64,000 nucleotides of DNA, from assembly GCA_001825665.1 (NCBI GenBank), contig MHXZ01000067.1:1-64000 (forward strand), read 5' to 3'. Of the stretch, positions 124 to 37,087 are shown in pieces; the stretch's first letter is position 1, and each line of letters opens with the position of its first letter. The notes below the pieces were generated by a model, which was not told the origin of the DNA, searched no databases, and saw nothing but the letters and a program-made list of their open reading frames with translations. Made by a program: the position numbers and the translations under genes. The DNA is from Planctomycetes bacterium GWF2_41_51. Lineage in GTDB: Bacteria; Planctomycetota; Phycisphaerae; Sedimentisphaerales; UBA12454.

Positions 124-2535
124 TTAAGTTATTTTTTCAAAGGGCCACATCTCCAACCCGCCATCGAGAAACTTTACATCCCGAAATCCCTGGTGCTTCA
201 AAATTATCGCCGCCTCATACCCGCGCAGCGAATAATTACAAAACGCCACAACAGTCCGCTCCTTCTTCAATTCCACAAATCGCGACCGTAGCGACGCAAG
301 CGGAATAAACACCGCCCCCTCAAGCCGCTGCTGCCGATACTCCGCCGGCGTCCGCACATCCAATAAAATAAAATCCTTCTTTTCCGCAATCCACTGCCGC
401 ACCGTCCGCGGCCCAACCCCCTCAACTAGCCCGTCAAGTTTATTCCTCGCAACATTCGCCGCCGTAATAATATTATCGATCACCGGCGCATAAGGCGGCG
501 CATAACACAAATCAAGATTCGCAATTTTATCAACCGTCATCTTCCCCGCAATCGCCGTCGCCGCAACATCAATTCGCTTAACCGTATCGCCCGCCCCAAT
601 CGCCTGCGCACCAAGCAGCCTCCGCGACCCCGCATCCACCACCAGTTTCATCATCACAACTTCTGCCCCAGTCACAAAATGTTCCCGATCCGGCGCCGGC
701 ACAAGCACTGTAACAACATCGAACCCCGCCTGCTTCGCCATAAATTCCGTCAGACCCGTCAGCGCAACATTATAATCGAAGACCTTGCATGCAACCGACC
801 CAAGTATCGGCCCAAAAGAATCGTCCCTTCCGCAAATATTCACTGCCGCCACCCGCCCCTGTTTATTCGCCGTCGAACCAAGCGGAAAATAAATCGGCTT
901 CCCCGTTATCATCTCCACATTCTCCACGCAATCCCCAGCCGCATAAATATCTTCGTCGCTCGTCTGCATTTTCTCATTCACTTTTATCGCGCCCGTAATC
1001 CCAATCTCAAGCCCAGCTTTTTTGGCAAGCGAAACATTCGGCCGATTCCCAACAGCGATAATCACCATATCTGCCGGATAAGTCCCCTCATTTGTTACAA
1101 CAGATTTTACACTATCAGTTCCCTCAAATTTCTCAACGCACGTATTTGTCAGCACCCGCACACCATGCGCTTCAAGCTGGTTTTCCACAAGCAAACCCAT
1201 TTCAACATCAAGCAGCCGGAAAATCTGAGGCAAACATTCAACTATTGTAACCCGGCATCCCTTTCTAACCAGCGCCTCAGTCATCTCAATTCCAATAAGT
1301 CCCCCGCCGACAATCACGACATCTCGTGCCTTCCCTCTATCCAGCGCCGCCTTAATCCCTTCCGCATCCGAAACACCGTGCAGTGTAAAAATATTCCCAA
1401 GCTCAATCCCCTCAAACGCAGGCTTAATCGGCTCAGAACCCGTCGCAATCACCAGCTTATCATATTCCAAAACCGATTCCAAACCATCAACAAGCTTCCT
1501 CACCCGCACGCGCTTATTCGCCCGGTCGATTTCAAACGCCTCAGTCTGATTCAAAAGATGAACGTTCTTCACCTGCTGAAAAAATATCGGGTCTCGAACA
1601 ACCCCCGCCGGAGAACTCATCAATTCCCGCTGGTCCTTCACAGCCCCGCTTATATAATAAGGCAAACCGCACCCCGCATAAGACAGTAGCCGCCCCATCT
1701 CGACAATCGTTACATCCGCATCCGGCACGAGCCGCATTATCTTCGCCGCAGCTTTCGGCCCTGCCGCAACTCCCCCGACAATCACAACCTTCATCGGCTT
1801 TTTCTTCTCAGCCGTTTCTTCCGCTTCTGTCTTTTCCGCAGCCGCAAGCCCGACTATAACTTCCGTCCCGCCCAGATGCGATTTCTCTATATGAACATTT
1901 CCGCCGGTCGCCTCGACAATCGTCTTCACAAACGATAGCCCAAGCCCTGTCCCCGGCCGCGAAGACGCGTGCGCTCCAGCCGTCCTGAAAAATGGCAAAA
2001 ATACTTTTTCACGATTCTCTTCCGATATCCCAATCCCCGAATCCGCAATCCGAACCTCGAACATATTCGTCGGCTCGTTATATAAAAGAATCATCTCAAT
2101 CTGCCCGTTATCAGGAGTGTACTTAACCGCATTGGAAAGAATCGCTTCGAGCATTTCCGTCATTGCCGCCGCACTCCCGACGACATAAGCGGGTTCGACA
2201 TTTATCTTCGCTGTAAGATTTATATTGTGTTTGCTTGCCTTTTCGTTATAAACCGCCGATGCTTTGCGAACAATCGTCGAAAGTTCAGTTCTGCCCTGAA
2301 ATGTCGATGGCTCATTGATAGCTCGTGAAATAGTTAGCAGCCGTTGTGCGGTAACAAGAGTATCATCGCAGCTTGCGATAGCTCGTTGAATAAGGTCTTT
2401 CTGCTTTGGAGAGATGGGCCCTGCGAATTCCCCCATAAGAGTTTGCAGGATTGTCCCGATAGAGGCCATTGGTCCTTTTAGCTGATGTGCGACCAGTGCC
2501 GCAAATTTCAAAGGGTCTGATATGATATTCTTCAT
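124..2535 (-). CDS. Histidine kinase - CoA-disulfide reductase-like flavoprotein - rhodanese fusion
   Basis: One uninterrupted 803-residue frame holds three modules. Residues 1-228 form a soluble histidine kinase: phospho-acceptor His17 (HQLKGP), N box around Asn135, DSGIGI at 165-170 and GTGLGL at about 195-200. A Glu/Lys-rich linker (229-247) leads to Met248, where an FAD/NAD(P)H disulfide reductase starts (VIVGGVAAG). It carries the CoA-disulfide-reductase active-site pattern with Cys289 in CGLPYY and a second nucleotide fold (VVIVGGGLIGIE). A rhodanese domain closes the protein, with Cys766 in CNYSLRG. CoADR-rhodanese fusions are a known family; the kinase fused in front is not an arrangement I know. 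There is no membrane segment or classical sensor domain, so I infer that the redox module may be the sensor. No clear Shine-Dalgarno precedes the ATG. A separate translation start at Met248 cannot be excluded. Confidence 0.9.
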   Translation of the reverse strand: MKNIISDPLKFAALVAHQLKGPMASIGTILQTLMGEFAGPISPKQKDLIQRAIASCDDTLVTAQRLLTISRAINEPSTFQGRTELSTIVRKASAVYNEKASKHNINLTAKINVEPAYVVGSAAAMTEMLEAILSNAVKYTPDNGQIEMILLYNEPTNMFEVRIADSGIGISEENREKVFLPFFRTAGAHASSRPGTGLGLSFVKTIVEATGGNVHIEKSHLGGTEVIVGLAAAEKTEAEETAEKKKPMKVVIVGGVAAGPKAAAKIMRLVPDADVTIVEMGRLLSYAGCGLPYYISGAVKDQRELMSSPAGVVRDPIFFQQVKNVHLLNQTEAFEIDRANKRVRVRKLVDGLESVLEYDKLVIATGSEPIKPAFEGIELGNIFTLHGVSDAEGIKAALDRGKARDVVIVGGGLIGIEMTEALVRKGCRVTIVECLPQIFRLLDVEMGLLVENQLEAHGVRVLTNTCVEKFEGTDSVKSVVTNEGTYPADMVIIAVGNRPNVSLAKKAGLEIGITGAIKVNEKMQTSDEDIYAAGDCVENVEMITGKPIYFPLGSTANKQGRVAAVNICGRDDSFGPILGSVACKVFDYNVALTGLTEFMAKQAGFDVVTVLVPAPDREHFVTGAEVVMMKLVVDAGSRRLLGAQAIGAGDTVKRIDVAATAIAGKMTVDKIANLDLCYAPPYAPVIDNIITAANVARNKLDGLVEGVGPRTVRQWIAEKKDFILLDVRTPAEYRQQRLEGAVFIPLASLRSRFVELKKERTVVAFCNYSLRGYEAAIILKHQGFRDVKFLDGGLEMWPFEKIT

Positions 2536-17531: not shown

Positions 17532-19166
17532 TTAAACGTTTTGAAACTGCGCGGCAGGTTTGATATACTTGCAGATAGTTTTAATCAGATAAGCACGATC
17601 TATCGGTTTTGCAACATAATCATCGCAGCCTGCCTGGCGGCACTTTTCTTCGTCCTCATTCATCAGACTCGCACTTATCGCGATAATCGGATTTTTAAAT
17701 CCGAAGGCATGCAGCCTTTTGGTTGTTTCAAAACCATTCATATTCGGCATCTGCATATCCATAAGCACCAAATCGAATTCCTGTGTATTGACGGCATCTA
17801 AAGCCTGCAAACCGTCAGATGCGATTGTTGCAGTAAAACCCAATTTTTCGAGAATACATTTTATGAAGGTCTGGTTTAAGGGTGTATCCTCAACAATAAG
17901 CACCCTGCCTGAAAATCTGCCTGTATAACCTTCTTCATCAACATCGGAATGTTTATTATCTTCAGTAATTACTATATCAGCGGGGACAATTAATGTGAAA
18001 GTGGAACCTTTTCCTACCTCGCTGAAGAGACTGATGTTTCCGCCAAGCAGTCTTACAAGCTGTCTTGTAACTGCAAGGCCGAGTCCTGTTCCGCCGTACT
18101 TGCGGGTTGTACTGCCATCGGCCTGCGTGAACACCTCAAAAATTGAGTCCTGTTTGTCGAGATGTATTCCAATACCTGTATCGGTAACCTTAAATTCGAG
18201 ATAAGGTTTTTGATCCCTCATAATGGACTGCACAGTAAAATCTATTTTGCCTTTTTCTGTAAATTTAACAGCATTGCTGACAAGATTTATAAGGCATTGC
18301 CTGAGTTTAACTGCATCAATGACAACCTTCCGAGGCACTTCAGCCGAACAAAGCACATTGAATTCGAGATTCTTTTGTTTAGAATCCGGTCTCATCAGAG
18401 ATTCGACATTCGCTATGAGTTCAGGAATATCGCATTCGACGTTTTCAACTTTTATTCTGCCTGCTTCAATTTTTGAAAAATCGAGAATATCATTAATCAA
18501 TAAAAGCAGACGTTTGGCGCTGTCGAGGATGAGCCTGACATAGCCGCTCTGCTCCTGTGTGAGATGCTCTTCTGAAAGGACTTCGCCAAAACCGATAATC
18601 GCATTCATCGGAGTTCTAATCTCGTGACTTATATTCGCGAGAAACTGGCTTTTTGCCACATTCGCTTTTTCGGCTTCGTGAGCCAGTTTGTTTGCGGTAT
18701 CCGAAGTTTGCATCAAGATCGCGTTCGTCTTTTCAAGTTCCTGTTTTGCTTCAATAAGGCTTGCTTTTGATTTTTTTCTTTCAATCGCATATCTGATTGT
18801 CTTTATGAGTGTATATTCGAGTCCGCTGCCTTTAACAAGGTAATCCTCTGCGCCTGCGCGAATCGCTTCCAACCCGGCTTCCTCATCATCAAAACCTGTG
18901 AGAACGACAATAGGGATATTAGCAGCTATAGCAAAAACTTTTTCTACGATTTCAGTCCCCCTGCAGTCCGGCAGATTAAGGTCCTGAAGGACTATATCGA
19001 AAAACCCTGTCTGGAGTTTCTGAATAGCCTCAGAAAACGTAGCGGCAGTTTCAACATTGAACCTGACCTGGCCCTGAGCCTGAATAAGAACAAGCTTCAC
19101 AAGCCGGCGGTCGAGTTCATCGTCGTCAACTAATAAAACTTTGGCTGTATTGTCTGGATGATTCAT
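17532..19166 (-). CDS. Hybrid histidine kinase (REC-HisKA-HATPase-REC)
   Basis: A soluble 544-residue phosphorelay protein. Domain order: receiver (residues about 9-125, LLVDDDE and DIVLQDLNLPD), a short coiled coil, HisKA (FLANISHEIRTPMNA), HATPase (NLVSNAVKF, DTGIGIH, GTGLGLA), then a second receiver (VLIVEDTPLNQ, DLVLMDMQMPNM, conserved Lys in YVAKP). No sensor or DNA-binding domain exists, so input likely arrives by phosphotransfer through the N-terminal receiver. The start overlaps the preceding receiver gene by 41 bases. It is last in the minus-strand signalling block and ends 4 bases from the convergent lepB gene. Confidence 0.9.
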   Translation of the reverse strand: MNHPDNTAKVLLVDDDELDRRLVKLVLIQAQGQVRFNVETAATFSEAIQKLQTGFFDIVLQDLNLPDCRGTEIVEKVFAIAANIPIVVLTGFDDEEAGLEAIRAGAEDYLVKGSGLEYTLIKTIRYAIERKKSKASLIEAKQELEKTNAILMQTSDTANKLAHEAEKANVAKSQFLANISHEIRTPMNAIIGFGEVLSEEHLTQEQSGYVRLILDSAKRLLLLINDILDFSKIEAGRIKVENVECDIPELIANVESLMRPDSKQKNLEFNVLCSAEVPRKVVIDAVKLRQCLINLVSNAVKFTEKGKIDFTVQSIMRDQKPYLEFKVTDTGIGIHLDKQDSIFEVFTQADGSTTRKYGGTGLGLAVTRQLVRLLGGNISLFSEVGKGSTFTLIVPADIVITEDNKHSDVDEEGYTGRFSGRVLIVEDTPLNQTFIKCILEKLGFTATIASDGLQALDAVNTQEFDLVLMDMQMPNMNGFETTKRLHAFGFKNPIIAISASLMNEDEEKCRQAGCDDYVAKPIDRAYLIKTICKYIKPAAQFQNV

Positions 19167-22620: not shown

Positions 22621-24561
22621 TTACTGAGCCACTGCGACCGTATTTTTAACGGCAGGGACGGTGAACCAGAAGGTCGAGCCGATATCGGGTTGTGATTCAA
22701 CTCCGATTTTACCGCCGTGACGTTCGACTATCTTCTTGCAGACTGAAAGGCCGATGCCTGTGCCTTCAAATTCATTTCTTGTGTGCAGACGCTTGAACAT
22801 TACAAATATCGAACTGATGTATTCCGGCTTAATGCCGATGCCATTATCCGTTACTTCGACTCTTATCATTCCATCGGCTGAAGGTTTGCTGGTTATAGTT
22901 ATTTTAGGCGTTTTGTCCTTTGGCTGATATTTAATACCGTTCGCGATAAGATTCTGCAAGAGCTGGCGTATCTGAACCGGGTCAGCTTCAATTGAAGGCA
23001 AAGACTGCGGGATTTCAACAATTGCCTGTTTTTCCTGCAGTACAACGGAAAGCTCAAGTTGCTGTAATTGTGTAATGATTTCATTAAGGTCAACTATCTG
23101 CGGAGGCTGCGTTTTGGAACTTACTCTCGAATATACAAGTAATCCTTCAATCATTTTATTCATTCTCATAGCGCCATCTATCATAAACCGCAGATTCTCA
23201 GCATCATCGCCGGAGAGCTTATCATTAAGCGATTTTTCCAATATGCTTCCGAAGGCGGTAATTTTTCTCAAAGGCTCACGTAAATCGTGCGAAGCGATAT
23301 AAACGAAATTTTTCAGTTCCTGATTGGCTTCTTCGAGCTTTGCCATTGAACTTTCAAGTTCATTATTTAAATGCTTCATACCCTCTTCAGCTTTTTTGCG
23401 TTCGGTAATATCAATAAATGCTTCGAGAAGCACTTCCTGATCGCCAAGCTTCATAGGTATAACATTTTTTATGATAGGTATTGCTGTTCTATCTTTTTTA
23501 AGAACTCTTCTTTCAGAGCAGTCTATTGACAGCCCCATATCTATAATGGGACATTTATCTTTATCTGCCGGGCATAGTGTGCAATGGCACATATTTCCAA
23601 CAAGTTCCTCTTCTGTAAAATTAGTCATTTTTTTTACGGCATCATTCACTCTTAGAATTTTCTTATCCTTGCCTACGACCATAACGCCAAATGGCATTGC
23701 GTCAATCATTGATTGTAGAATACCTTGAGATTTCCTAATTTCCTCTTCGGCCTTTTCACGTTCTGTAATTTCCTTTTTCAATTTTTCATTTGTGCTGCTG
23801 ATTTCGGCCGTACGTTCGTGGACTTTAATTTCCAAACTGGTTTTTGCCTCGATTAATTCAGAATCACGCTGTTGAATCTGCTCGAGCATTTCATTAAAAG
23901 CTTCAATGAGCGAACCAACCTCATCATTGCTCTGCTTGACGGCACGAGTTGAATAATCTTTTTTCTCAGAGACAACCTTTGCCAGCATGGCAATCGCGAG
24001 GAGCGGCTTGGAAACTACATTCTGAAGTCTTGTCGAAATCAGAAATACAGCTATTAAAGAGAGAGCTATAACAACACAAATTATTTTAATGCTGTGGTAT
24101 AAGGATTCGGTTATAGATTTCAAATCACATTGCAGGCAAATCGTACCAATTCTCTGATTATCCAGAACAACAGCGCAAGAAACGGTAAGTAAATTATCTG
24201 TAAAATAAAATTGCTCTTTAAAATTAGAAGGGAGTTTTTTGGCTATGTTGTCATTTCGATAGTAAGCGGCAAAGAGCGAATCTTTATCGTCGTAAATACC
24301 GCCGAAAACAATTGAATTATCAACGTGAAGAGCTTCAAGTATTTTCTCGGCGTCTTTGTTGTCCTGAAAGGCAAGAGAAGCTTTGCAATTTTCAGCAACC
24401 ATTTGAGCACGTGTGGATAAATTATTAACCATGCGACTGCGAAGCATGTTCTGGTTCCATCCGATAAATGCGCTGCCCGACAGGATTAAACCTGTAAGAC
24501 AAGCAAGCATAACTATCATCAGGAGCTTGTATTTAATTGTCATGTTTCGCGTTATATTCAT
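22621..24561 (-). CDS. Sensor histidine kinase with CHASE8, HAMP and PAS domains
   Basis: I start it at 24561 (MNITRNMTIK), which has AAGGA just upstream and overlaps the YfiR-like gene by 29 bases; the open frame runs 48 residues further without family support. Order: membrane helix, periplasmic CHASE8-like domain (ENCKASLAFQDNKDAEKILEAL), membrane helix, HAMP, long coiled coil, PAS with a Cys-rich loop (CHCTLCPADKDKCP), HisKA of phytochrome type (YIASHDLREPLR), HATPase (NLIANGIKYQ, DNGIGIK, GTGIGLS). CHASE8 is the sensor of YfiN, which is controlled by periplasmic YfiR; here the output is a kinase instead of a cyclase. The Cys loop may bind metal or a cluster. Confidence 0.88.
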   Translation of the reverse strand: MNITRNMTIKYKLLMIVMLACLTGLILSGSAFIGWNQNMLRSRMVNNLSTRAQMVAENCKASLAFQDNKDAEKILEALHVDNSIVFGGIYDDKDSLFAAYYRNDNIAKKLPSNFKEQFYFTDNLLTVSCAVVLDNQRIGTICLQCDLKSITESLYHSIKIICVVIALSLIAVFLISTRLQNVVSKPLLAIAMLAKVVSEKKDYSTRAVKQSNDEVGSLIEAFNEMLEQIQQRDSELIEAKTSLEIKVHERTAEISSTNEKLKKEITEREKAEEEIRKSQGILQSMIDAMPFGVMVVGKDKKILRVNDAVKKMTNFTEEELVGNMCHCTLCPADKDKCPIIDMGLSIDCSERRVLKKDRTAIPIIKNVIPMKLGDQEVLLEAFIDITERKKAEEGMKHLNNELESSMAKLEEANQELKNFVYIASHDLREPLRKITAFGSILEKSLNDKLSGDDAENLRFMIDGAMRMNKMIEGLLVYSRVSSKTQPPQIVDLNEIITQLQQLELSVVLQEKQAIVEIPQSLPSIEADPVQIRQLLQNLIANGIKYQPKDKTPKITITSKPSADGMIRVEVTDNGIGIKPEYISSIFVMFKRLHTRNEFEGTGIGLSVCKKIVERHGGKIGVESQPDIGSTFWFTVPAVKNTVAVAQ

Positions 24562-25189
24562 AGACATCCTTTTTGTAGCCTTGTGATTGTTTCTCTTCGA
24601 TAACTTTCTTTGCAAGGCGTAAAAGCTGAGAACGGATTTCGAGTTTTGACTGCAAAGCGGCAATAGCGTTAATTTCAAAACAAATTTTATCGTCTTCAAC
24701 AACAAAATTAATCACGCCACCGCCTGATTCGAGAAACCCATCCATATCACCGACCGTCAAAATATTATAACCATTCACCAGATTTATAATTTCTTGTAAA
24801 ACCGGTTTTTCAGAACTGCATATAAACAGCAAATGACATTTCCTTATCTCCTCTATTTCACTGTTCATTTTTTCAGGAGATGATTTCTTAATATCTTCCA
24901 AACCGGCGAAATATTTAACCGCTATATTTTTTTCTTTGACCTGCTTACTTTTTATAGGTTCAAAGGCATTTTCAAATGGGTTTTCCCCCATTACTCCTAT
25001 TATTATGGGCTGACCATCAGCAGGCATTTTTTCCTTCGGCCAATCAATGAACATCATAAAATTATAAATGAACGCAGCTTTAAGTTGATACTCGCGTCCG
25101 GAAAGGGAATCTGCCCGGGTTTGCGTGCAGGTAAACATTGCAAAAATTAAAATAATATAAAAGTAAATTCTTAGTTTTGCCAATCTCAT
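24533..25189 (-). CDS. YfiR-like periplasmic protein (DUF4154)
   Basis: Exported protein of the YfiR/DUF4154 family. A start at 25189 (MRLAKLRIYFYIILIFAMF) gives a proper signal peptide ending near TQTRA. Family features are YQLKAAFIYNFMMFIDWP, the CHLLFICSSEK segment and the end region NILTVGDMDGFLESGGGVINFVVEDDKICFEIN. In Pseudomonas YfiR represses the CHASE8 cyclase YfiN in response to redox or envelope stress. Here it overlaps a CHASE8 kinase gene, so I infer it regulates that kinase. It is the first gene of the signalling block. Confidence 0.88.
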   Translation of the reverse strand: MRLAKLRIYFYIILIFAMFTCTQTRADSLSGREYQLKAAFIYNFMMFIDWPKEKMPADGQPIIIGVMGENPFENAFEPIKSKQVKEKNIAVKYFAGLEDIKKSSPEKMNSEIEEIRKCHLLFICSSEKPVLQEIINLVNGYNILTVGDMDGFLESGGGVINFVVEDDKICFEINAIAALQSKLEIRSQLLRLAKKVIEEKQSQGYKKDVYEYNAKHDN

Positions 25190-33114: not shown

Positions 33115-33738
33115 ATGAACGAAAAAATTATATTATTCGGCGGAACATTTGACCCGATACACAAAGGTCATATTGAAGTAGCGCAATCTGCATTAGAAAA
33201 AATAGGCGCTGGTAAAATCATATTAATACCCGCAAGGCGTTCTCCTCATAAAAACAAACAGCCTGTAGCCGCTGATATAGACAGAATCGCGATGCTTCAG
33301 CTCGCTGTAAACAGCAATAAAGCATTTCAAATCAGCAACATTGAACTGAATCGCGCAGAACCGAGCTACACAATTGACACTATTCATCAATTGCGTGAAA
33401 AATTCGGAGATGATTGCGATTTTTATTGGCTCATCGGCGCAGATATGCTCAAAGACCTGCCTCTTTGGCATAAAATCAATGACCTGCTGGATGAATGCAA
33501 TATCTGCGTTATGAATCGCGGCGGATACGAAAAACCGGATTTTAATAGCTTAAGACGCAAACTTAGCCCTGAAAAAACTGAAAAGCTTCGGCAAAATATG
33601 ATTGAGACTCCGTTAATTGAAATCAACAGCACAGAAATACGTCAAAGATTATTCAATGAACAGGATGTCAGCCAATTTCTGCATCCTGATGTTTTGGATT
33701 ATATCAAAAGAAGAAAACTTTATATCGCAAAAGATTAG
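33115..33738 (+). CDS. nadD: Nicotinate-nucleotide adenylyltransferase
   Basis: NAD biosynthesis enzyme adenylating nicotinate mononucleotide. The 207-residue protein has the nucleotidyltransferase motif GGTFDPIHKGHIEVA, the PSYTIDTI segment, WLIGADML and the C-terminal ISSTEIR-like stretch (INSTEIRQRL). Its stop overlaps the convergent RACo-like gene by 4 bases. Upstream is a long AT-rich gap with no other recognised signal. Confidence 0.93.
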   Translation: MNEKIILFGGTFDPIHKGHIEVAQSALEKIGAGKIILIPARRSPHKNKQPVAADIDRIAMLQLAVNSNKAFQISNIELNRAEPSYTIDTIHQLREKFGDDCDFYWLIGADMLKDLPLWHKINDLLDECNICVMNRGGYEKPDFNSLRRKLSPEKTEKLRQNMIETPLIEINSTEIRQRLFNEQDVSQFLHPDVLDYIKRRKLYIAKD

Positions 33739-35306
33739 CCGGGAAAAATCATCGCGTTAGCGAATTCATTTTGGAAATCAAAATCCGCTGATAATTCTAT
33801 ATGTTCGCTCTGCGCAGCAAGAGTTTCTGCCTTTTTCATTGCTGCTGTTGAAAGCAGCGTCATCTTAGCTCCTGCCAGAGACGTATTACCGATGAATGAT
33901 ATTTTTTCGTGATGTATATCCGCAGGCAGCAGACCGATACGCTGAGCATGATTTCGACGAATGAAACTGCCGAATCCGCCTGCAACGAGCACACGCTGCA
34001 AATCAGACGATTGAACACCCGCTTTTTTAAGCATTATAGTTATTCCCGCCCGTATAGCGCCGACCGCAAGCTGAATCTGACGAACATCTCTTTGCGTTAT
34101 TACAACTTTTTTATCTATATAAAACGCGGGCTGGTCATTTACATCAGTTATAATTCGCGCAGCAATTTTCGGCGGAAGATTTTCCGGTTTTACTATTCTT
34201 CCGGTAATGTCAACAATCCCGGCACTAAGCAATTCTGAAGCGATATCAATAAGCGCGCTTCCGCATATACCGGAAGGTTTGGCATTTCCAAGCACCGAAT
34301 ATATACAGTCATCCTCGAACTTTATCTTTTCAACAGCACCGGCCATCGCGCGCATTCCGCATGATATTCCTGCGCCTTCGAATGCCGGCCCTGCCGCTGT
34401 CGAAGCTGCAAAAATTTTGCCATCCTTCACTACAACAATTTCACCATTGGTGCCGATATCAATCATTAGCACAGGTTGCGGCTGATTCAGTAAATCGACA
34501 GCCAGCATTCCAGCCGAGATATCGCCGCCGACAAATCCGCCGATAACAGGAAAAACATAAATTATGCCATTCGGATTTATTTCGATATTAAGTTCCGATG
34601 CCTTTATTTTTACTGCGCCATGCCACACCGGTTCGAAAGGCAGCTGTCCAAGCGGCGATGGGTCAATCCCGCACAGCAAATGCTCCATAGCAGTATTGCC
34701 TGCGATGGAAATTTCATAAATCGATTTTCTTTCGATGACCGCCAGCCTGCAAAGATTATCAATCATCTCTTTGACTTTCTTGATAATCGCTTTTTGCAGA
34801 TGGTCGAGTCCTTTGGGACTGTCGGATGCAAGCTTTATTCTGCTGATTACATCGTCGCCGTAAGAAATTTGCGGATTATGGCCGCCCAGAACTGCAATTT
34901 CATTTCCATTTTTAAGATTAACCAGCGATGCCGCGATCGTCGTAGTGCCGACATCGACCGCAACGCCGAAACACAAATCGCTTTCAACGTATTTTTCATC
35001 AGGCACGATATTGTGAATAATATCGGAATCGACCACAACTTTACCAAGCCCCGCAAGCAGTGAATTTTTAGGCACTTCAACGATGGTATCTTCAGAAATC
35101 GCCTGCTGGCAAGCAAGGCACTCGCCTTTCTTCTCTTCAGGCTGAATAATCGTTACTTTGCATTTTCCGCAGGTTCCCAACCCGCCGCAAGGTGTATCGA
35201 TAATCACACCTGCAAGCGCCGCCGCTTCGATAATCTTCGTGCCCGGCAAAACGTAAACTGTTCTGCCCTGCGGCTGAAACGTTACTTTAATTTGATGTCC
35301 ATCCAT
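33735..35306 (-). CDS. RACo-like corrinoid reactivation protein (2Fe-2S ferredoxin + ASKHA ATPase, DUF4445)
   Basis: A 523-residue protein. The N-terminal 2Fe-2S ferredoxin has Cys in PCGGLGTCGKC and later CLAC. After a linker comes an ASKHA ATPase domain (CFGVAVDVGTTTIAASLV, ISIAGNTAMEHLL, LMIDIGTNGEIVV, VLVAGGFGSFI) of the DUF4445/RACo type. Known relatives reduce oxidised Co(II) corrinoid proteins in an ATP-dependent way to restart methyl transfer. No methyltransferase or corrinoid protein gene is nearby. It is the last gene of an operon with the radical SAM and MBL genes (3-base gap). Corrinoid uptake by the BtuCDF-like importer elsewhere in the window would fit. Confidence 0.88.
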   Translation of the reverse strand: MDGHQIKVTFQPQGRTVYVLPGTKIIEAAALAGVIIDTPCGGLGTCGKCKVTIIQPEEKKGECLACQQAISEDTIVEVPKNSLLAGLGKVVVDSDIIHNIVPDEKYVESDLCFGVAVDVGTTTIAASLVNLKNGNEIAVLGGHNPQISYGDDVISRIKLASDSPKGLDHLQKAIIKKVKEMIDNLCRLAVIERKSIYEISIAGNTAMEHLLCGIDPSPLGQLPFEPVWHGAVKIKASELNIEINPNGIIYVFPVIGGFVGGDISAGMLAVDLLNQPQPVLMIDIGTNGEIVVVKDGKIFAASTAAGPAFEGAGISCGMRAMAGAVEKIKFEDDCIYSVLGNAKPSGICGSALIDIASELLSAGIVDITGRIVKPENLPPKIAARIITDVNDQPAFYIDKKVVITQRDVRQIQLAVGAIRAGITIMLKKAGVQSSDLQRVLVAGGFGSFIRRNHAQRIGLLPADIHHEKISFIGNTSLAGAKMTLLSTAAMKKAETLAAQSEHIELSADFDFQNEFANAMIFPG

Positions 35307-35309
35307 GAT

Positions 35310-36242
35310 TTAAATAGCCTTATAATATATTTTATTATTTTGTGTCGTGGGTATGATTTTCCCGGATTTAACAAGATCCTCGATATGTTTAAGAACTTCA
35401 AGGTTCGATATTTTAAGTCCTGCCGCAATATCATCCGCGCTGCAGGGTCTGCGTTTGAGCATTTCAATAATATCATCGTCTTTAGCCGTGAAATCTTCAG
35501 TTACAGTGCCTTTGAAATCGGCGATTACTTCGGCATATTTATTGAGTTTCTTTTCAATCTGCTCAAGTCTTTGTGGAGTCAGCGGTTTAACATCTTCTGC
35601 CGGAGGTCTGCTTACCGTATTAAGCTGTACCTTATCAGGCTGAATTCTTTCAATGCACCTGGAAATTTTCTCAATCTGTTCGTCGCTGTCATTCAAACCG
35701 GCAATTAGAAAAACTTCCAGCCAGTATTTTCCTTTATATTCCGTTCTAAAATCTATCAGCCCCTGCACCATCTTCTCGAACGTAATCCCTGCAACCGGCC
35801 TGTTTATCTTTTGAAATGTTTCTTCATCACCCGCGTCCAGCGACGGCATTACCAAATCTGCTCCGAGCAGTTCCTTGCGAACCTCCGGCAAAAACAGCAG
35901 CGAACCATTTGTAATTACCGCAACGGAAACAGATGTAATTTTTTTTATCTCCGCGATTAATCTTCCGCACTCACTATAAAGCGTCGGCTCACCCGAACCG
36001 GAAAGCGTAATATAATCCGGCTTCAAGGAAAGTTTATCTTTAAGTTCAGCGATTATTTCATCGACTGAAATCCAGCTTTTCCGCTGCATTGTCTTTTCTG
36101 TAGTAAGACCTACCTGGCAATACAGACAATCGTATGTACAGGTCTTTGCCGGTATTAAATCGATTCCCAAAGAACGTCCGAGCCTCCTGGAAGGTACCGG
36201 CCCGAAAATATGCCCTGCTTTCAATGGCGATTTTTCTTTCAT
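35310..36242 (-). CDS. Radical SAM protein (COG0731 family) with C-terminal winged helix
   Basis: Start chosen at 36242 (MKEKSPLKAGHIFGPVPSRRLGRS), giving the family's GPVPSRRLG opening; it overlaps the MBL gene by 4 bases. Cluster ligands are in CTYDCLYCQ. Further motifs are YITLSGSGEPTLY and FLIAGLND. The last 75 residues look like a winged helix (IEMLKRRPCSADDIAAGLKISNLEVLKHIEDLV). COG0731 contains the wyosine-forming enzymes, but bacterial members are mostly uncharacterised, so the reaction is unknown. Confidence 0.87.
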   Translation of the reverse strand: MKEKSPLKAGHIFGPVPSRRLGRSLGIDLIPAKTCTYDCLYCQVGLTTEKTMQRKSWISVDEIIAELKDKLSLKPDYITLSGSGEPTLYSECGRLIAEIKKITSVSVAVITNGSLLFLPEVRKELLGADLVMPSLDAGDEETFQKINRPVAGITFEKMVQGLIDFRTEYKGKYWLEVFLIAGLNDSDEQIEKISRCIERIQPDKVQLNTVSRPPAEDVKPLTPQRLEQIEKKLNKYAEVIADFKGTVTEDFTAKDDDIIEMLKRRPCSADDIAAGLKISNLEVLKHIEDLVKSGKIIPTTQNNKIYYKAI

Positions 36243-37087
36243 ATCACCTCGAACTGACAGCTTGTACCAGCAGAGCACATAAAGCATCGTCTCGGAAATT
36301 GTTTTCTGAATTCAAGTTCCGCTTCCACTCCTGTGCAATGTCCCGGTCCGATTCGCTGAATGCCGAAGCGTTCGATATTATCGATTACTTTTGAAACTCT
36401 TTCTTTGCTGCTGCCGATAAGATGAAAACCGCCCATTATCGTATGAACATGGTCAACGCCGCTGATTTTCGTAATGTAATCGAGCGTGTTAATCAATCCC
36501 GCGTGAGCACAGCCGAAAATTGAAACAAGCCCGTGTTCTGTATTGAAGTAAATCGATTGGTCGTCGGTCAATACGTCAGGCTCTTTTGCATTTTCATCAA
36601 GAAAGAATTCCTGCTCATCGACTTCAAAATTATTAGTTCGCGGTATCTCTCCGCTGACGAAAAGACCCGGTAAAACTTCGGTAGGTCCTTTTGTCCAGAC
36701 GATTTTATTTGTATCTGCGTGCGATTCGATAATCTTTTTAGAGCCGTTGGATATTCCAATCGACCTGCTCGAACCGCCGTGAATGCTGTACCTTTTGTCC
36801 AAAGCTCCGGGATGCATATATATTTTCGCTTTATGAGCAAAATTGAGTACCGCTTCCAACCCGCCCGTATGATCCGAATGTCCGTGGCTTATAACAATCG
36901 CGTCAGTATCCGCTAAATTTATGCCGAGTATTTCAGCATTGCGTACGACAATCCCGGATTGTCCGGTATCGAACAGTACTTTATGTTCGCCAAATTCTAT
37001 CCAAAAGCTTATTCCATGCTCTGAAAGAAGGCCGTCGCCTTCGGCTGTATTCTCGACAAGTGTAGTTATTTTAACTTTTTGTGCCAT
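36239..37087 (-). CDS. MBL-fold metallohydrolase (COG1237 family)
   Basis: Metallo-beta-lactamase fold enzyme, 282 residues from the ATG at 37087 (MAQKVKITTLVEN). Metal ligands appear in SHGHSDHTGG, a His in GCAHAGLINT, and the C-terminal His in GPGHCTG. COG1237 members are linked to 7,8-dihydropterin-6-methyl-4-aminobenzene-5'-phosphate synthase activity in methanopterin-type pathways. First gene of the operon with radical SAM and RACo-like genes. A one-carbon or corrinoid-linked role is inference. Confidence 0.87.
   Translation of the reverse strand: MAQKVKITTLVENTAEGDGLLSEHGISFWIEFGEHKVLFDTGQSGIVVRNAEILGINLADTDAIVISHGHSDHTGGLEAVLNFAHKAKIYMHPGALDKRYSIHGGSSRSIGISNGSKKIIESHADTNKIVWTKGPTEVLPGLFVSGEIPRTNNFEVDEQEFFLDENAKEPDVLTDDQSIYFNTEHGLVSIFGCAHAGLINTLDYITKISGVDHVHTIMGGFHLIGSSKERVSKVIDNIERFGIQRIGPGHCTGVEAELEFRKQFPRRCFMCSAGTSCQFEVI

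Follow-up and report, generated by a model that had tools for sequence, protein, structure and literature searches.

A histidine kinase fused to a persulfide-reductase-type flavoenzyme in Planctomycetes: a probable one-protein redox sensor with a genomic association to [NiFe] hydrogenases

The window, the whole 64,000-nucleotide stretch of Planctomycetes bacterium GWF2_41_51 analyzed here, opens with the first base of C67, one of the 138 contigs of its genome. Close to that end, a single open frame on the minus strand (124–2535) runs from an ATG start through 803 amino acids without an internal stop, joining kinase, flavoenzyme and rhodanese parts as a preliminary description of this DNA had proposed. 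Pfam assigned HATPase_c to residues 123–230 (1.3e-20), Pyr_redox_2 to 248–541 (5.7e-67), Pyr_redox_dim to 582–685 (1.2e-16), and Rhodanese to 713–797 (1.1e-15), while the HisKA match at residues 10–72 (1.1e-4, 22.6 bits) fell slightly below its 26.9-bit cut-off. The features of the gene are as follows.

124..2535, minus strand: whole fusion gene, 803 aa, HisKA-HATPase-Pyr_redox_2-Pyr_redox_dim-Rhodanese (single open frame; Pfam; 30 full-length fusions aligned)
2311..2535, minus strand: DHp (HisKA) domain, aa 1–75, helices 8–34 and 43–74 (Pfam; AlphaFold secondary structure)
2485..2487, minus strand: His17, phospho-acceptor, in the HQLxxP box (invariant in 30/30 fusions)
2368..2370, minus strand: Cys56, DHp helix 2, candidate redox/persulfide switch (invariant in 30/30; hydrophobic helix face)
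1846..2310, minus strand: HATPase_c catalytic (CA) domain, aa 76–230, N/D/F/G boxes intact (Pfam; invariant motif residues)
1795..1845, minus strand: charged variable linker, 17 aa, aa 231–247 (alignment; AlphaFold pLDDT)
445..1794, minus strand: Npsr/CoADR-type FAD-NADH pyridine nucleotide disulfide oxidoreductase, aa 248–697 (Pfam; Foldseek best match 6pfz)
1669..1671, minus strand: Cys289, flavin-side active-site cysteine (invariant in 30 fusions and 27 free-standing relatives)
127..444, minus strand: rhodanese domain, aa 698–803 (Pfam)
238..240, minus strand: Cys766, rhodanese active-site cysteine, present in the window protein (lost in 9/30 fusions)

Both active-site cysteines lie where they had been placed before. 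The AlphaFold model of the fusion has a mean pLDDT of 87 and a pTM of 0.68; residues 237–244 of the linker fall below a pLDDT of 50, and linker identity averages 19.5% over pairs of the 30 fusions. Because the window begins at the contig start, the 3′ flank of the gene lies outside the data and its neighbor on that side cannot be assessed in this genome; the visible flank carries a divergent ABC-transporter-type gene.

A scan of GTDB contigs recovered six full-length fusions, every one from Planctomycetes records, and genome searches raised the total to 30 (the window's included), which share 53–82% identity with the window protein and are spread over many of the families in the class, with one from a different class. 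One of them (G370) sits in a 4.28-Mb single-contig record. Its occurrence in 30 genomes, including that one, excludes an assembly chimaera or frameshift, and the homologs are not always separate genes, which is what the preliminary description had named as refuting its reading. A match in Clostridium tetanomorphum (L017), in which an intervening gene separates the kinase gene from that of CoADR, was set aside as a different architecture. Pairwise dN/dS over the DHp and CA domains ranged from 0.0 to 0.2, comparable to the enzyme part though with saturated dS in distant pairs, which indicates that the kinase part is under purifying selection.

Free-standing relatives of the enzyme also occur in Planctomycetes, at 55–64% identity to the enzyme part of the fusion, and no kinase gene was found hidden beside them in the available flanks (short for a few). 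Two candidates cut by contig ends (fG218 and fG339) were excluded from this set; for G218 a matching kinase fragment lies at the end of another contig (L201). In a tree of fused and free-standing forms the fusions clustered, with four label changes vs. a shuffled mean of 21, but G761 and fG419 break the fusion clade in this partly unresolved tree, so a strict single origin cannot be claimed. A second, more distant CoADR-rhodanese family (∼40% identity) occurs class-wide (e.g., G093, G070, G111) in open frames of 820–870 aa, which extend beyond the matched region on one side or the other.

The kinase part retains its signature motifs throughout: H17, N135, DSGxG, the F-box, and GxGxGL are invariant in all 30 aligned fusions. 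Within the DHp domain only six positions are invariant (H17, Q18, P22, G39, Q45, and Cys56). The last of these lies on the hydrophobic face of helix 2, and its equivalent is Ala or Thr in the six closest stand-alone kinases, which resemble membrane or FHA-type kinases; on this pattern of conservation we regard Cys56 as a candidate redox switch of the kinase. The input module of a histidine kinase, be it PAS, GAF, transmembrane, or HAMP, normally precedes the kinase core. Here the frame begins only 16 residues ahead of the phospho-acceptor His17 and the chain holds no other sensor domain, in agreement with the earlier remark that a transmembrane or PAS sensor is missing. What could serve as input is instead the redox enzyme that follows the kinase core; it looks intact and is the sole candidate.

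The core of that enzyme is intact, as first described: Cys289, Tyr678, Glu433, and the GDC motif are kept in all 30 fusions, and Glu433, the acidic residue at the NAD site, predicts a preference for NADH. In a Foldseek comparison, residues 248–797 matched 6PFZ, the persulfide reductase of Archaeoglobus fulgidus, at 46% identity and with a TM score of 0.97 on the target. The initial name of CoA-disulfide reductase proved too specific, since the protein misses both NCBIfam equivalog cut-offs for CoADR (414.5 vs. 578.8 bits for TIGR03385 and 387.8 vs. 458 bits for NF007123), and its nearest characterized relative, the A. fulgidus Npsr, is NADH-specific and reduces persulfides and polysulfide but not CoA disulfide (PMC7969121). 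Nor did the emphasis once placed on the rhodanese cysteine hold up. All 27 free-standing relatives keep this residue vs. 21 of the 30 fusions, the other nine, on several separate branches, having Ser or Gly in its place, so loss is confined to fusions, and sulfur transfer by the rhodanese is ruled out as a signal path shared by all of them. It is as if the enzyme were partway to becoming a sensor.

The genomes in which neighborhoods and co-occurrence were counted are related to one another. Genes for hydrogenases, their maturation, or electron transfer lie within 6 kb at seven of 31 fusion loci, compared with none of 30 free-standing loci (p = 0.011, which shared ancestry of the counted genomes makes too small); the other 24 fusion loci have no adjoining hydrogenase gene. 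An Mbh operon adjoins the fusion in G116, G158, and G238. In G116, Rex and then a long operon come after the fusion on its strand; the operon encodes a membrane-bound [NiFe] hydrogenase of the Mbh type, including electron-transfer subunits like AsrA and AsrB, Mrp-like subunits, and a large subunit that has both cysteine pairs (RICGIC and DPCYSC). The order in G158 is fusion, stand-alone receiver, and a G116-like Mbh-type operon, and in G238 it is Rex, another kinase, receiver, and fusion, with the Mbh-type operon divergent. The Rex-type repressor of G116 and G238 is presumably an NADH sensor, as is typical of its family. Elsewhere, the fusion is convergent with a receiver, a maturation protease, and HoxH of an NAD-linked Hox operon (G020), lies near an AsrA-like subunit in a genome with a second, contig-cut fusion copy beside Hox (G262), is directly followed by HypC and HypD (G164), or is preceded with a 4-base overlap by a [NiFe] large subunit and HycI protease (G292). 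These hydrogenases resemble ordinary Hox and Mbh enzymes.

The preliminary description had stated that no response regulator lies next to the gene, which agrees with the one visible flank in the window and does not extend to the relatives, three of which (G158, G238, and G020) have a stand-alone receiver directly adjoining the fusion. The search for conserved neighbors that it suggested gave these receivers and the seven hydrogenase-type loci; in G105, G128, G190, and G202 the genes after the fusion look like housekeeping genes of a carbamoyl-phosphate synthase region (read by eye). These four are uninformative on function, and a conserved functional neighbor in the window's genus was rejected. 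The AsrA-like subunit of the Mbh operons was not found in the window's genome (G000). Loci L122 and L123 carry Mbh-type operons with Mrp-like and added AsrA/AsrB-like (4Fe-4S and FAD/NAD) subunits, in L123 also with a Rex gene, and possibly encode an NAD(P)H-linked membrane hydrogenase.

At the level of whole genomes, HypD was present in 25 of 26 fusion genomes and in 198 of 371 others in the class sample. A Hox operon (HoxH ortholog) with a terminal receiver was found in 21 of 30 fusion genomes vs. five of 50 non-fusion genomes, the latter nearly all picked as HypD-positive (p = 4e-8, again too small for reasons of ancestry). The window's genome has such an operon on another contig (G000:C66; L209:5643-11163), comprising fused HoxEF, HoxU, HoxY, HoxH, a protease, and a stand-alone CheY-like receiver that has no DNA-binding domain (L209:10789-11163). 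This gene order with its terminal receiver recurs in most Hox-bearing relatives; an output-less receiver within a hydrogenase operon is unusual, and literature searches on single-domain regulators in such operons gave nothing relevant. Nine of the 30 fusion genomes have no Hox receiver, and the five non-fusion genomes with Hox and receiver indicate that the receiver follows the operon rather than the kinase alone; a tie between receiver and fusion beyond the Hox operon was therefore rejected, and their pairing is a prediction. A kinase other than the fusion comes after the Hox receiver in G263, and the receiver of G238 is likewise preceded by a different kinase.

The gene counts thus show a genomic association of the fusion with [NiFe] hydrogenases and stand-alone CheY-like receivers, and within this one uncultured Planctomycetes lineage the fusion is probably a redox sensor contained in a single protein and tied to hydrogen metabolism. 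We assign a probability of about one half to the more specific reading that it is a cytosolic two-component kinase whose sensing module is the C-terminal NADH-dependent persulfide-reductase-type flavoenzyme, and that it couples the NADH and thiol-persulfide state to H2 metabolism. In such a scheme the NADH and sulfane-sulfur/thiol state of the cell would set the FAD-Cys289 center, whose redox or ligand state would reach the DHp bundle through Cys56 (as a disulfide, persulfide, or mixed disulfide) or, alternatively, through a rearrangement of the dimer by way of the linker. Because the linker is variable and modeled with low confidence, no rigid coupling path is visible. The change in DHp would switch autophosphorylation of His17, and the phosphate could pass to a stand-alone receiver such as that of the Hox operon or of an Mbh-type operon, which might then tune how much hydrogenase is expressed or how active it is, keeping NADH/H2 metabolism in step with redox state. 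The most detailed version, a persulfide/NADH-to-hydrogenase phosphorelay in which the reductase reads or writes the state of the invariant DHp cysteine and the phosphorylated hydrogenase-operon receiver acts on H2 metabolism, is tentative and on balance doubtful.

The main rival of a thiol switch is purely allosteric NADH/flavin sensing, in which the flavoenzyme dimer rearranges once NADH binds and FAD is reduced and thereby repositions DHp and CA, with Cys56 a mere packing residue. This is a serious possibility even if we do not favor it: the flavoenzyme core and Glu433 are invariant, the hydrogenase partners interconvert NAD(H) and H2, a Rex-type repressor adjoins two of the fusions, the rhodanese cysteine is dispensable in 9/30 fusions, and Cys56 does occupy a hydrophobic helix face. 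Packing alone, on the other hand, sits poorly with a cysteine invariant in every fusion at a position where the nearest stand-alone kinases pack Ala or Thr.

Conservation of Cys289 and the enzyme core, together with retention of the rhodanese cysteine in most fusions, would also be expected of a bifunctional enzyme with the kinase as sensor or regulator and the persulfide reductase as its output, the two co-regulated on one chain. We consider this unlikely, as there is neither a sensory domain upstream of DHp nor a receiver in the chain, and the disappearance of the rhodanese cysteine from several lineages speaks against full catalysis having been maintained. Still less probable is a fusion of convenience, with kinase and enzyme independent and the hydrogenase neighbors accidents of anaerobic, fermentative genomes. 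Most loci indeed have no such neighbor and HypD is common in the order anyway, but the fusion is still present in homologs only 53% identical, where the kinase motifs are conserved along with it and a new cysteine has become invariant, and several different hydrogenase gene sets are linked to it.

Known systems offer partial parallels. RegB is a thiol/quinone redox-sensing kinase. In the quinone-responsive AccS of Azoarcus, three kinase-core cysteines take part in autokinase switching (PMC6456745). Such cysteines, proposed or shown to switch the autokinase in these two proteins, are a putative parallel to Cys56, but neither has a fused enzyme, whereas the fusion pairs a single DHp helix-2 cysteine with a dedicated flavoenzyme on the same chain. 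In the H2-sensing HoxBC/HoxJ/HoxA system, hydrogenase is under the control of a histidine kinase whose signal is sensed by an enzyme (PMC6978683), a likeness that extends to the target proposed here; its sensor, however, is a separate regulatory [NiFe] hydrogenase rather than an attached persulfide-reductase flavoenzyme, and the receiver linked to the fusion, where there is one, differs in having no DNA-binding domain. The Npsr/CoADR-RHD enzymes (A. fulgidus, PDB 6PFZ, PMC7969121; Bacillus anthracis CoADR-RHD; Shewanella Npsr) align end-to-end with residues 248–797 (518 bits) and share the flavin-side cysteine and C-terminal rhodanese, but have no kinase attached; the fusions differ further in that 9/30 have lost the rhodanese cysteine. 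Sulfane-sulfur and sulfide regulators such as the YrkD/NreB cluster of Bacillus licheniformis control sulfur metabolism in response to sulfide or sulfane sulfur, and no CoADR/Npsr enzyme is described there in the role of a histidine kinase sensor domain (PMC9918477). There are thus precedents both for cysteine-switched kinases and for an enzyme that senses on behalf of a hydrogenase-controlling kinase; literature searches for the present architecture turned up no persulfide reductase joined to the C-terminal side of a kinase core.

If the preferred sensor reading is right, an enzyme has been converted into the sensor of its own fused kinase, members without the sulfur-loading cysteine may have been caught midway through that change, and anaerobic Planctomycetes would possess a genetically encoded link from sulfane sulfur or NADH state to hydrogenase control.

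The window holds several other features, all read by eye. Two minus-strand frames (17532–19166 and 22621–24705) encode further histidine kinases, a REC-HisKA-HATPase-REC hybrid and a HAMP/PAS-type membrane kinase. Further along, a minus-strand frame at 33735–35306 combines an N-terminal 2Fe-2S ferredoxin-like stretch with an ASKHA-type (RACo-like) body and adjoins a radical-SAM-like gene at 35310–36287.
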